Source: Paludibacteraceae bacterium
Lineage (GTDB): Bacteria; Bacteroidota; Bacteroidia; Bacteroidales; Paludibacteraceae
Direction of reading: 5' to 3'
NCBI GenBank assembly: GCA_024400125.1
Contig: JAKSNG010000003.1
Span: 1-64,000, forward strand
Length of the DNA stretch: 64,000 nucleotides
The notes beneath the pieces were generated by a model. That model did not search any database. It was not told where the DNA came from and saw nothing but the letters and a program-made list of their open reading frames with translations. Positions 52,126-58,552 of this stretch are shown one piece after another. A program made the translations under genes and the position numbers. Positions within the stretch are counted from its first letter, which is position 1; every line of letters starts with the position of its first letter.

Positions 52126-52704
52126 TTACAATATTTGTTTCAATGCCGCCATAGCACGCGCACGATGACTAATGGAGTTTTTGATTTCAGCAGGTAATTG
52201 CGCAAACGTTTGTTCGTGCCCTGTTGGAATAAATATGGGATCATAGCCAAACCCTCCTTCACCATGTTCTTCGAAAGCAATGGAGCCATTGACAATGCCT
52301 TCTACTTGTGTAACCTCACCTTCTTTAATGAGTGTGATGACGGTTCTAAAACGAGCCGTACGATTGGTCTTTCCTGCTAATTCTACTAGTGCTTTGTGAC
52401 GATTATTCGCAGGATTGCTCGGTTCCCCTGCCCAACGTGCAGTATATACCCCAGGCTTACCACCTAAAGCGGATATTTCTAGACCTGTATCATCTGCGAA
52501 GACCCAAAATTGGAGATTGTGCTGCTGCAACCAAGTGGACACAGTCTGCGCCTTAATAAGCGAATTAGCCTCTAATGTTTCTCCTGTTTCCTCAATCTCT
52601 TGTTCAAAACCGACATCGTGTAAACTTAAAACTTCGTGGTCAGACAGAATAGCACGAACTTCAGCCAACTTATGAGCATTATTACTGGCAAATATAAGTT
52701 TCAT
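52126..52704 (-). CDS. rdgB: XTP/dITP pyrophosphatase
   Basis: 192 residues. It hydrolyses non-canonical purine triphosphates to keep them out of DNA. LIFASNNAHKLAEVRAIL at the start, FADDTGLEISALGGKPGVYT, FGYDPIFIPTGHEQTFAQL and SHRARA match the Ham1 family. It overlaps the aspA stop (ATGA). Confidence 0.96.
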   Translation of the reverse strand: MKLIFASNNAHKLAEVRAILSDHEVLSLHDVGFEQEIEETGETLEANSLIKAQTVSTWLQQHNLQFWVFADDTGLEISALGGKPGVYTARWAGEPSNPANNRHKALVELAGKTNRTARFRTVITLIKEGEVTQVEGIVNGSIAFEEHGEGGFGYDPIFIPTGHEQTFAQLPAEIKNSISHRARAMAALKQIL

Positions 52705-54134
52705 CGGCGTGGTTTGATATCCAATTTAACAGGACGAATCATGTTTTCTGGACTAAGAATTGTATCTAACTCTTCTTTCGTAAGAATACCATGTTCAAGT
52801 ACTAATTCATAAACACCACGACCTGTAGCAAGGGCTTCTTTTGCTATTTTAGTGGAGTTCTTATACCCAATGATTGGATTTAAAGCCGTCACAATACCGA
52901 TGCTACCTTTGATATAGTTTTCGCAGCGTGTTTTGTCTGCTTTAATGCCTTCTATACAGAACTTACGCAATACATCAAAACCATTCATCATGATTTCCGC
53001 AGACTCGAAGCAGCACTGTGCCATCGTTGGTTCTGCCATATTCAGTTCCATTTGCGCAGCTTCATTGCACATTGCTACACAGAGGTCGTTGCCAATCACT
53101 TTGTAACTGATCTGGTTCATTACTTCAGGAATAACAGGATTTACTTTACCTGGCATAATCGAACTACCAGGTTGACGAGCAGGTAGCTCCAATTCATGCA
53201 GTCCACATTTAGGACCTGATCCCAAAAGACGTAAATCATTACATATTTTGTTCATTTTAGTGGCTATGCGTCGGAGAACGCTGGAATATCCCACCATGCA
53301 ACTGGTATCGCTTGTAGCTGCTACTAAGTCCGCAGCTAATACTACATTCCATCCTGTCGCTTGAGCTATGGCAGCGGTGCATTTTTCTGCATAACCTGGT
53401 TGTGCACAAATACCAGTGCCAATAGCTGTTGCCCCCATGTTAATGGTTAGGAACTCTTCAGCGGCATCATTCAAGTGTTTAACTTCATCTCTTAGAATAG
53501 AAGCAAACGCACCAAAAGTTTGACCCAATGTCATTGGTACTGCATCTTCAAGTTGAGTACGACCCATTTTGAGAACATCCTTAAACTCAATAGCCTTGGC
53601 CTCAAATGCCGCAATCAGTTGTTCAAAATGTTTGACAAACTCTTTATTGGTTGCATACAATCCTAAATGAATAGCTGTTGGGTAAGCATCATTGGTTGAT
53701 TGTGCGCAATTGACATGGTCATTGGGAGAGCAGTATTGGTATTCGCCAGGCTGATGCCCCATAATTTGCAACGCACGATTAGCAATAACTTCATTAGCAT
53801 TCATGTTGGTGGTCGTTCCTGCACCACCTTGAATCATATCTACAGGGAACATCTCATGGTGTTGACCAGCAAGCAACTCCTCACATGCCTTACGAATGCC
53901 TGTATATTGCTCGTCTGTGAGAAGACCTAACGAATGATTTGCCTCTGCCGCTCCAAGTTTGGTGTATGCCAAACCATGAATGAATGTAGGATAATCACTT
54001 AACTTGAATTTAGAAATTGGGAAGTTCTCAATACCGCGTTGCGTTTGAACACCATAAAGAGCTTCAATTGGAATTTGCAATTCGCCTATCAGATCACTTT
54101 CTGTGCGAGTTTTACCACTAAAATGAATAGCCAT
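52701..54134 (-). CDS. aspA: Aspartate ammonia-lyase
   Basis: 477 residues. It converts aspartate to fumarate and ammonia, feeding fumarate respiration common in gut Bacteroidales. The superfamily signature GSSIMPGKVNPVIPE, the GGAGTTTNMNANEVIANRAL stretch and the catalytic-site segment MGRTQLEDAVPMTLGQ are present; these fit AspA better than FumC. The start at 54134 is fixed by the promoter at 54161-54192, since an upstream in-frame ATG at 54215 would lie before the transcript start. Confidence 0.93.
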   Translation of the reverse strand: MAIHFSGKTRTESDLIGELQIPIEALYGVQTQRGIENFPISKFKLSDYPTFIHGLAYTKLGAAEANHSLGLLTDEQYTGIRKACEELLAGQHHEMFPVDMIQGGAGTTTNMNANEVIANRALQIMGHQPGEYQYCSPNDHVNCAQSTNDAYPTAIHLGLYATNKEFVKHFEQLIAAFEAKAIEFKDVLKMGRTQLEDAVPMTLGQTFGAFASILRDEVKHLNDAAEEFLTINMGATAIGTGICAQPGYAEKCTAAIAQATGWNVVLAADLVAATSDTSCMVGYSSVLRRIATKMNKICNDLRLLGSGPKCGLHELELPARQPGSSIMPGKVNPVIPEVMNQISYKVIGNDLCVAMCNEAAQMELNMAEPTMAQCCFESAEIMMNGFDVLRKFCIEGIKADKTRCENYIKGSIGIVTALNPIIGYKNSTKIAKEALATGRGVYELVLEHGILTKEELDTILSPENMIRPVKLDIKPRR

Positions 54135-54160: not shown

Positions 54161-54192
54161 CAAAATTACAACAATATTTGCATATATGCAAA
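54161..54192 (-). promoter_or_regulatory. Promoter of aspA-rdgB-porZ
   Basis: Minus strand: TTTG (54192-54189), 20-bp spacer, TAATTTTG (54168-54161). The -33 box is the right end of the palindrome TTTGCATATATGCAAA. Confidence 0.85.
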
Positions 54193-54208
54193 TTTTTGAG
54201 TACTTTTG
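54177..54208 (+). promoter_or_regulatory. Promoter of the DUF2147-panD-tgt operon
   Basis: TTTG 54177-54180, 20-bp spacer, TACTTTTG 54201-54208. The -33 box is the left end of the same palindrome that holds the aspA -33 box, so the two promoters overlap back to back. Confidence 0.85.
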
Positions 54209-54230: not shown

Positions 54231-54659
54231 ATGAAAAAGATGGTATTTTTAGCCTTTGTGGGGCTATTTTGTATGTGCGCGTATGGTCAAGTAGATCAAA
54301 TCGTGGGCGATTGGAAAACTGTGGATGACAAGACGGGAGATAGTTTCTCGATTGTTTCTATCTATGCAGGAAATAATGGTTTGTATTATGGCAAGATTAG
54401 TAAAATGCTTGTTGGACAAGATCTAGTATGTGACTTATGTGAGGGTGCTGATCATAATCGACCATTGGAAGGTTTGGTGATCATTCGTGACATGAAAGCC
54501 ATCGATGGCGAATTGCGTGAAGGAAAAGTGTTAGACCCAGAATCGGGCAAGTTTTACTATGGTAAGATTTATCTTAAGGATGGTAAGTTAGTACTGCGTG
54601 GTAGCCTTGATAAACGCGGTTTCTTAGGACGTAACCAAACATGGGTTCCTGCCAACTAA
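54231..54659 (+). CDS. DUF2147 secreted protein
   Basis: 142 residues with a signal peptide (MVFLAFVGLFCMCAYGQ). VGDWKTVDDKTGDSFSIVSI, YYGKISKML, a CDLC pair and GSLDKRGFLGRNQTWVP match DUF2147, a small beta-barrel family of unknown function in Bacteroidota and Proteobacteria. The start at 54231 follows from the promoter; panD is 12 bp downstream. Confidence 0.88.
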   Translation: MKKMVFLAFVGLFCMCAYGQVDQIVGDWKTVDDKTGDSFSIVSIYAGNNGLYYGKISKMLVGQDLVCDLCEGADHNRPLEGLVIIRDMKAIDGELREGKVLDPESGKFYYGKIYLKDGKLVLRGSLDKRGFLGRNQTWVPAN

Positions 54660-54671
54660 TTATAAAATTCT

Positions 54672-55013
54672 ATGTTACTCAATATACTCAAATCAAAAAT
54701 TCACCGCGTGACGGTGACGGAGGCCAATTTGGATTACGTAGGAAGCATCACTATAGATGAGGCCTTGATGGAAGCTGCAAACATATTGTCTGGTGAACGT
54801 GTGCAAGTGGTTGACAATACGAATGGTGCACGGCTAGAAACGTATGTTATCCCTGGAAAAAGAAATAGTGGATGTATCTGTATGAACGGCGCAGCAGCCC
54901 ATTTGATGCAAGTCGGTGATACGGTTATTATCATGGCATACGCATTGATGACTCCAGAAGAAGCCAAGAACTTTAAACCACATATTGTTTTTCCGAACAA
55001 CAATAAACTCTAA
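54672..55013 (+). CDS. panD: Aspartate 1-decarboxylase proenzyme
   Basis: 113 residues. PanD makes beta-alanine for pantothenate and coenzyme A. The self-processing Gly-Ser is in [33 protein letters not shown] and CMNGAAAHL follow. It competes with AspA for aspartate and lies in the operon divergent from it. Its stop overlaps the tgt start by one base (TAATG). Confidence 0.95.
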
Positions 55014-56143
55014 TGTTTTTTGAATTAAAGAACACAGACTCCTCTTCCGCGGCGCGTGCGGGTGTTTTACATACGGATCATGGTGATATCATGACCCCGA
55101 TTTTTATGCCTGTAGGTACGGTGGGAACTGTTAAAGGTGTCCAACGCCGAGAGTTAGAAGAAGACATTCATGCTCAAATCATATTAGGTAATACCTATCA
55201 TTTATTCCTGCGCCCTGGAACGCAAATCTTACGTCAAGCTGGCGGGTTGCATCGTTTCGAAGGATGGACTCGTCCTATTTTGACGGATTCTGGCGGTTAT
55301 CAGGTGTTTTCATTAACAGACATCCGTAAGATGACGGAAGAAGGAGTACAATTCTCGTCTCATATTGATGGTCGTAAATTAATGTTTACTCCTGAATCGG
55401 TGATGGATATTGAACGAGAAATAGGTGCCGATATTATGATGGCATTTGACGAGTGTTGTCCAGGAACGGCAGACAAAACCTATGCGCGTCAGTCTATGGA
55501 AAGGACACATCGCTGGCTAAACCGTTGTATAGAGCGATTCGATAGTACAGATGATTTGTATGGCTACAAACAACATCTTTTTCCCATTGTACAAGGATGT
55601 ACATATCCAGACCTCCGTCAAGAGGCCGCTAAGCGCTTAAGAGATTTGGATCGTGATGGCTATGCCATAGGAGGACTTGCGGTAGGTGAACCAACAGAAG
55701 TAATGTACGAGATGATTGATGTGGTTAATGATATCCTGCCGACAAATAAACCACGTTATTTAATGGGAGTTGGAACGCCTTGGAATATTTTAGAAGGTAT
55801 TGCTCGTGGTGTGGATATGTTCGACTGCGTGATGCCTACTCGTAATGGACGTAATGGACAGATTTTTACTTGGCAAGGTGTAATGAATATGCGCAATAAG
55901 AAGTGGGAAGATGATTTTACAGAACTGGACCCAACTGGAACTTCATTTGTTGACCATTCGTACACGCGCGCGTACGTTCATCATTTAATACACGCGCAAG
56001 AAATGTTAGGATTGGAAATCTTATCTATTCACAACTTAGCATTCTATCTCGAGTTAGTGCGTACAGCACGTGAGCATATTGTGTTAGGTGATTATGGTAA
56101 TTGGGCGCATGCGATTTTACCCCAAATCATGCATAGATGTTAA
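55013..56143 (+). CDS. tgt: Queuine tRNA-ribosyltransferase
   Basis: 376 residues. Tgt exchanges G34 of GUN tRNAs for preQ1. Substrate and catalytic Asp appear in ILTDSGGYQVFSL and VMPTRNGRNGQIFT; GGLAVGEP is also present. The usual zinc site CxCxxC is not seen: the matching region reads DPTGTSFVDHSYTRAYVHHL, so three Cys are replaced. That is known for some Tgt sequences in Bacteroidota as far as I recall, but should be checked. The stop overlaps the lptG/F start by 7 bp. Confidence 0.95.
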   Translation: MFFELKNTDSSSAARAGVLHTDHGDIMTPIFMPVGTVGTVKGVQRRELEEDIHAQIILGNTYHLFLRPGTQILRQAGGLHRFEGWTRPILTDSGGYQVFSLTDIRKMTEEGVQFSSHIDGRKLMFTPESVMDIEREIGADIMMAFDECCPGTADKTYARQSMERTHRWLNRCIERFDSTDDLYGYKQHLFPIVQGCTYPDLRQEAAKRLRDLDRDGYAIGGLAVGEPTEVMYEMIDVVNDILPTNKPRYLMGVGTPWNILEGIARGVDMFDCVMPTRNGRNGQIFTWQGVMNMRNKKWEDDFTELDPTGTSFVDHSYTRAYVHHLIHAQEMLGLEILSIHNLAFYLELVRTAREHIVLGDYGNWAHAILPQIMHRC

Positions 56144-58423: not shown

Positions 58424-58455
58424 CAAAGATAGATTTTTTTTTGCATGCGCGCAAA
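58424..58455 (-). promoter_or_regulatory. Promoter of the exonuclease gene
   Basis: Minus strand: TTTG (58455-58452), 20-bp spacer, TATCTTTG (58431-58424). Confidence 0.8.
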
Positions 58456-58520
58456 GAAAAATTAGGAAAGTATTCTAAAAATTGAAAAAGTTCTAAATAC
58501 GGATGTTTTTTGGCAAAATA

Positions 58521-58552
58521 TTTGCATATATGCAAATTTTTTTGTACTTTTG
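58521..58552 (+). promoter_or_regulatory. Promoter of the LytTR regulator gene
   Basis: TTTG 58521-58524, 20-bp spacer, TACTTTTG 58545-58552. The -33 box begins the palindrome TTTGCATATATGCAAA (58521-58536), the same as at aspA. Confidence 0.8.

Follow-up and report, generated by a model that had tools for sequence, protein, structure and literature searches.

The locus studied here is an intergenic region in the genome of a Paludibacteraceae bacterium, within a stretch of 64,000 nucleotides that was analysed as a whole (hereafter the window). Two groups of genes face away from each other across this region, and the genes and promoter elements were placed as follows.

52126..52704, minus strand: rdgB/HAM1 family NTP pyrophosphatase, which overlaps the aspA stop and is likely in the same operon (family searches)
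52701..54134, minus strand: aspA, aspartate ammonia-lyase, 477 aa, ATG start 54134 (NF008909 over its cut-off; TIGR00839 below its cut-off)
54161..54168, minus strand: -7 box TAATTTTG of the aspA promoter, predicted start ~54156 (box from the sequence)
54177..54192, no strand: 16-bp perfect palindrome TTTGCATATATGCAAA with both -33 boxes inside (window sequence; genome copies)
54177..54180, plus strand: -33 box TTTG of the DUF2147 promoter (window sequence; genome count of TTTG-N20-TAnnTTTG)
54189..54192, minus strand: -33 box TTTG of the aspA promoter (window sequence)
54201..54208, plus strand: -7 box TACTTTTG of the DUF2147 promoter, predicted start ~54213 (box from the sequence)
54231..54659, plus strand: DUF2147 protein, 142 aa, ATG start 54231 (PF09917)
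54672..55013, plus strand: panD, aspartate 1-decarboxylase (family searches)
55013..56143, plus strand: tgt, tRNA-guanine transglycosylase (family searches)
58521..58536, plus strand: second exact copy of the palindrome, serving as the -33 region of a one-sided promoter, with TACTTTTG downstream (sequence match)

An LptF/LptG permease was also among the family-search matches in the window. Between the two gene groups, positions 54161–54208 read CAAAATTA-CAACAATA-TTTGCATATATGCAAA-TTTTTGAG-TACTTTTG. On the plus strand, TTTG at 54177–54180 is followed after 20 bp by TACTTTTG at 54201–54208, and on the minus strand TTTG at 54192–54189 is followed after 20 bp by TAATTTTG at 54168–54161; both -7 boxes are perfect matches to TAnnTTTG, and 32 bp lie between them. 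The initial annotation had given these coordinates and the two 20-bp spacers exactly, as re-reading of the sequence confirmed, and its description of two facing-away promoters with overlapping -33 elements in a 16-bp palindrome is borne out by the boxes and their spacing. In terms of the Bacteroidota sigma-A promoter, the -7 element TAnnTTTG is present on both strands and a -33 TTTG lies at a suitable distance. According to the available text of one study, the -7 box occupies -12 to -5 relative to the transcript start (PMC9723704), a placement that predicts starts at ~54156 (aspA) and ~54213 (DUF2147) and thus leaders of ~22 and ~18 nt. Translation likely begins at ATG 54134 (AspA) and ATG 54231 (DUF2147); longer mechanical ORFs of both proteins begin before the predicted transcript starts, in one case within the palindrome. 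The predicted starts of the two transcripts would lie ~57 bp apart. At this distance, two RNA polymerase footprints on the module would overlap by some 50 bp. Mutual exclusion is therefore likely, and judging from geometry and footprint size it is very unlikely that both sides are bound by polymerase at once.

Within the window, three sites matched the 16-mer with at most two mismatches, compared with 0.05 expected from shuffles. A second divergent pair at 58430–58544 has the palindrome at 58521 on one side, and its -7 to -7 distance of 113 bp is near the phased series described below. The exact 16-mer occurred 20 times in the 1,617,845-base source genome (reversed control 0) and 59 times with at most two mismatches (control 2). 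A perfect -7 box lay beside all 20 exact copies, on both sides in 5 and on one side only in 15. The genes downstream of these copies and of the near matches were unrelated and of mixed housekeeping types, as read from their translations rather than by family search; at the 20 exact copies no shared target function was found in this reading, and a specialised regulon was rejected. The two-sided form, CAAAnnTA-N32-TAnnTTTG, was found 26 times in the source genome (control 0), 39 times in a congener (G017) and 3 to 39 times across 25 genomes of the genus, while 16 genomes outside the genus held 0 to 9, some with controls of similar size. Similarly, the exact 16-mer ranged from 0 to 25 copies per genome across 25 genus genomes; outside the genus it reached at most one copy, in 4 of 293 genomes, all of other families, and among 295 genomes sampled from the order several copies were present in the source genome and one congener only. 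A scan of ~85,000 species genomes for the two-sided form returned at least 119 stretches, and all 80 loci among the matches listed came from records titled Paludibacteraceae, Bacteroidales, Bacteroidia or Candidatus Colicola. The flanks measured 8 bp on both sides in 79 of these 80 listed loci (the search pattern allowed 6 to 9), and 73 two-sided pairs comprised 39 distinct gene pairs, two of which were found in 8 loci each. Judging from these counts, the putative palindromic shared promoter appears largely restricted to one gut Bacteroidales genus, where it serves unrelated genes, and is not special to aspA/panD.

We then considered the promoters of this lineage more generally. A logo anchored only on TAnnTTTG, drawn from 90 intergenic promoters in 435 kb of the source genome, showed TTTGCATATnTCAAAA ~8 bp before the -7 box; of the source-genome stretches, one sampled set was by chance without an exact palindrome and another set contained exact palindromes. 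The same logo was obtained from G017. G016, a congener without the palindrome, had a weaker -33 region and no spacer block, and the logos of G065 and G175, which belong to other genera of the family, gave little. Counts of TTTG-N20-TAnnTTTG reached 314 in the source genome (control 11) and 407 in G017. Promoters with a mid-spacer CAAA numbered 202 in the source genome (control 0), by a pattern that, unlike the N20 count of 314, also admits spacers of 19 and 21 bp; there were 230 in G017, 13 in G016 and 0 to 21 in 16 genomes of other families. In source-genome samples the spacer was strict, with 148 N20 cases against 5–23 at spacers of 18, 19, 21 and 22 bp, and CAAA fell into two registers (69 at -13 and 28 at -12, at most 5 elsewhere). 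A change of sigma factor was rejected as the cause of the dyad: the RpoD region 4.2 helix LTRERVRQIKEKA is equal in dyad-rich and dyad-poor genomes, a comparison based on one match each in 17 of 18 genus genomes (G010 gave none, and the copy in G013 ends early). Relative to N20 promoters, CAAA-bearing ones ranged from ~0.09 to 0.64 across 25 congeneric genomes, the RpoD recognition helix being constant in the comparison above.

Two-sidedness varied with the register of the spacer element. In the source genome a second, opposite -7 box accompanied 10 of 28 promoters in the symmetric 8-bp register, 8 of 69 in the 7-bp register and none of the 73 that lack CAAA; the corresponding numbers in G017 were 15 of 22, 5 of 39 and 2 of 69. 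Exact palindromes were one-sided in 11 of 15 cases in the source-genome sample and 4 of 12 in G017, and among divergent gene pairs with both boxes the shared form made up 7 of 36 in the source genome and 13 of 24 in G017. A perfect palindrome thus tends to accompany sharing without being confined to it; with one-sided use at 15 of the 20 exact copies, sharing alone does not explain it. Most one-sided promoters, too, carry the CAAA half-site with no general trace of an opposite -7 box, a pattern for which sharing does not account. A vestigial opposite promoter was accordingly rejected as the general cause of one-sided dyads, as opposite -7 scores were near background; the exceptions were 5 near-perfect opposite boxes among 60 source-genome 7-gap promoters, at one offset (1.55 expected), and a raised opposite -7 mean at one offset in 7 G017 8-gap sites. 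Matches of the d=24 class (29, each strict on one side or both) were not counted as promoters, because they most likely arise by composition, the common C at -32 and the A and TA after it matching CAAAnnTA.

The distances between facing-away promoters were not continuous. Measured from -7 to -7 box, they were quantised at 32, 53, 63, 73, 84, 94, 104, 115, 125 and 136 bp, that is, 32 + 10.4k bp; the value 42 is missing because two -33 boxes cannot fit there, as TTG and CAA would overlap. For distances of 45–160 bp, with nTTG-N20-TAnnTTTG required on both sides and uniform draws as control, the best period in the source genome was 10.4 bp (n=31, R=0.84), a value reached by 0 of 4000 draws at any period. 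Phasing was also strong in G017 (n=14, R(10.4)=0.74, 0/4000) and not significant in G002 (n=9, R=0.54 at 10.4, 260/4000). It persisted in the pooled pairs when a gene was verified on both sides (n=42, R=0.77, 0/4000; 12 of 54 pairs dropped) and when one pair was kept per flank-similarity cluster (n=49, R=0.76, 0/2000). Four further species pooled gave n=151, R=0.83 and 0/4000, these pairs coming from the first places among the matches listed for 4 of the 61 genomes examined. Individually, and again among the matches listed, they gave R=0.88 in G345 (n=49, 0/4000), R=0.80 at a best period of 10.1 and 0.77 at 10.4 in G330 (n=51, 0/4000), R=0.91 in G350 (n=40, 0/4000) and, from a partial list, a weakly significant R(10.4)=0.60 in G320 (n=11, 71/4000). 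Some of the compared species are close relatives, with G345 and G017 sharing a near-identical site. Pairs with and without CAAA were about equally phased (without CAAA, n=20, R(10.4)=0.71).

A similar periodicity was present in promoters without a partner. Their AT content peaked near -28, -38, -48, -58 and -68 relative to the -7 box, the peaks being separated by GC-rich breaks, a ladder that 0 of 1000 random rotations matched in each of three species; it was also strong in G016, and weak in the other-genus genomes G065 and G175. If the ladders of two facing-away promoters are made to coincide, distances of 31.6, 52.4, 62.8, 73.2, 83.6 and 94.0 bp are predicted in the source genome (T=10.4, no fitted offset) and 31.8 to 94.2 bp in G002; in G017 the predicted distances are about 1 bp larger, and the prediction misses by about that much. 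The observed series is thus predicted to within about 1 bp. Because the ladder of partnerless promoters predicts these distances without a fitted offset, we read the shared palindrome as the shortest in-register arrangement of two promoters.

Taking the boxes, their spacing and recurrence, the phasing and the ladder together, we consider it probable that the module is a back-to-back sigma-A promoter with a shared core, one copy of a lineage-specific promoter grammar in which facing-away promoters are placed in ladder register. Two housekeeping promoters would face away from each other, with their -33 boxes forming the two arms of one palindrome, and RNA polymerase could load in either direction, almost certainly never in both at once. 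The grammar comprises a strict 20-bp spacer, often a mid-spacer CAAA (a reverse -33 box) and upstream AT tracts at every helical turn, and promoters facing away would be placed with their AT ladders in register, at 32 + 10.4k bp between the -7 boxes. The module would then set gene layout and basal expression and would not act as an aspartate switch.

The perfect dyad, and its mostly one-sided use (15 of 20 exact copies), could also mean that the palindrome serves a dimeric global DNA-binding protein as an operator that overlaps the -33 region, and that two-sided promoters are a by-product of its symmetry. The two sharp registers of CAAA (69 at -13, 28 at -12) and the lack of a general vestigial opposite -7 box fit such an operator, as does the RpoD recognition helix, which is unchanged between dyad-rich and dyad-poor genomes, so that the dyad is not attributable to the sigma factor. 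We regard this as rather unlikely, however, as 202 CAAA-bearing promoters against 314 N20 promoters (the former count admitting the neighbouring spacers) with very mixed genes do not resemble a regulon, and the phasing is about as strong in the 20 pairs that lack CAAA. Contacts across the two promoters, either between RNA polymerases or through a bridging protein, might instead of shared AT tracts produce the phasing, which holds to about 136 bp and is independent of CAAA. This is unlikely in our view: the partnerless AT ladder predicts the phase with no free parameter in the source genome and G002, and the simpler cause suffices. Ladder sharing, and not protein contacts across the pair, would then be the probable cause of the phasing. 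A bolder version of the ladder-register reading, which we put forward tentatively and as somewhat less than an even bet, is a helical-phase rule: both polymerase sites would lie on one helical face and share a single bent AT ladder, which either a dedicated architectural protein or the wrapping of polymerase would hold, the palindrome would be the zero-turn state, and divergent pairs would act as single promoter-architecture units.

The initial annotation had proposed that, through the shared promoter, AspA and PanD may be coupled in opposite directions, the one breaking aspartate down and the other using it for beta-alanine. Both enzymes do use aspartate, and the geometry implies competition. 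Such a selected link nevertheless found no support in the comparisons and now seems highly improbable: the same module stands at dozens of unrelated gene pairs (39 distinct among the 73 above), and the neighbourhood is not conserved. AspA at least 78% identical to the protein of the window is present in 12 of 41 genus genomes, the source included, and is divergent from DUF2147 in 2 of these 12, the source genome and G332; several of the other orthologues have different genes upstream. The DUF2147 gene was matched in 46 of 61 genomes, and among the best 30 of these 46 loci (with ~1,500 bp of downstream sequence for most and 85 bp for L352) panD and tgt follow it in one, that of the source genome. 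A conserved aspA-panD unit was thus not found among the 12 AspA orthologues and 30 DUF2147 loci. In six other genus loci it is rdgB that is divergent from DUF2147, and the alignment shows the 32-bp two-sided promoter at each of the six, though its inner bases vary. In the source genome and G332, aspA lies between the shared promoter and rdgB, and in G332 the distance is 31 bp instead of 32 and the palindrome is broken. What is conserved, by these comparisons, is the putative promoter architecture and the rdgB/DUF2147 neighbourhood rather than aspA-panD. Moreover, basal activity was too low for competition at all five bidirectional promoters tested in E. coli, according to the available text of that study (PMC12825309), which likewise argues against the coupling; exclusion is likely here, yet competition need not matter. 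The weakest alternative, that AT-rich intergenic DNA and nothing more placed a chance palindrome between two ordinary promoters, is practically excluded and already refuted by 20 copies against 0 in the reversed control and 26 two-sided spacings against 0. Two further observations concern these genes. The AspA proteins of the genus form two groups, ~78–89% and ~58–60% identical to that of the window, with different neighbours. Across L328–L349, DUF2147 and rdgB, where not divergent, are often consecutive on one strand and keep company either way.

Several components of this arrangement are already known, namely the Bacteroidota sigma-A boxes, bidirectional promoters and phased A-tracts. Phased A-tracts and UP-like elements upstream of promoters place AT tracts every 10–11 bp. 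Both boxes of the Bacteroidota sigma-A (sigma-ABfr) promoter, -33 TTTG and -7 TAnnTTTG, are present at this locus, the -7 box in its expected place. The spacer of B. thetaiotaomicron is AT-rich and of variable length in the available text on that species (PMC7366714), whereas the promoters studied here keep it at 20 bp, with a CAAA block in its middle. Prokaryotic bidirectional promoters, as far as described in the available text of Warman et al. 2026 (PMC12825309), comprise pseudo-symmetric DNA and two exclusive polymerase orientations, a likeness that geometry predicts for our module. In that text, however, it is the -10 element that both directions share, and the starts mostly lie 18, 10 or 23 bp apart; our module shares the -33 region, its starts are predicted ~57 bp apart, and in place of a shared symmetric -10 it has two separate -7 boxes 32 bp apart. 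Curved DNA with such AT tracts upstream of promoters (see also PMC3940949 and PMC4132750) is similar to the ladder, except that here two facing-away promoters hold their ladders in a common register. Operators of the MerR type, placed between the -35 and -10 elements (PMC12825309), also lie between promoter boxes, though here the site occurs in most promoters and not in a regulon. Our searches of the open-licence literature turned up neither the -33-sharing geometry, nor the fixed 20-bp spacer with mid-spacer CAAA, nor, above all, any report of helically phased divergent promoters in Bacteroidota.

Overall, the shared design with its apparent phasing appears to be a general gene-layout rule across the genus rather than an aspartate-metabolism switch. 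If so, promoter pairs in an uncultured gut genus would obey a geometric rule readable from sequence alone, and annotators could place promoters precisely in metagenome genomes of the genus. It would also offer a direct way of testing whether divergent transcription is controlled by DNA bending or by helical face, for which the usual approach is a few engineered promoters, and it would advise caution in assigning metabolic meaning to shared promoters that are local house style.

Upstream of several one-sided palindromic promoters (L010, L011, L013, L017, L020 and L021) we observed arrays of ACTTTTT-type units with a 9-bp repeat (16 of 24 spacings), and similar units are present in G350. Repeats were rejected as the source of the phasing, because CTTTT arrays with this 9-bp spacing have no 10.4-bp period. 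Unlike the source genome, G017 has TGGCAA...TTGCCA-like inverted repeats before one-sided palindromic promoters at L283, L285 and L292, and these end beside the palindrome.
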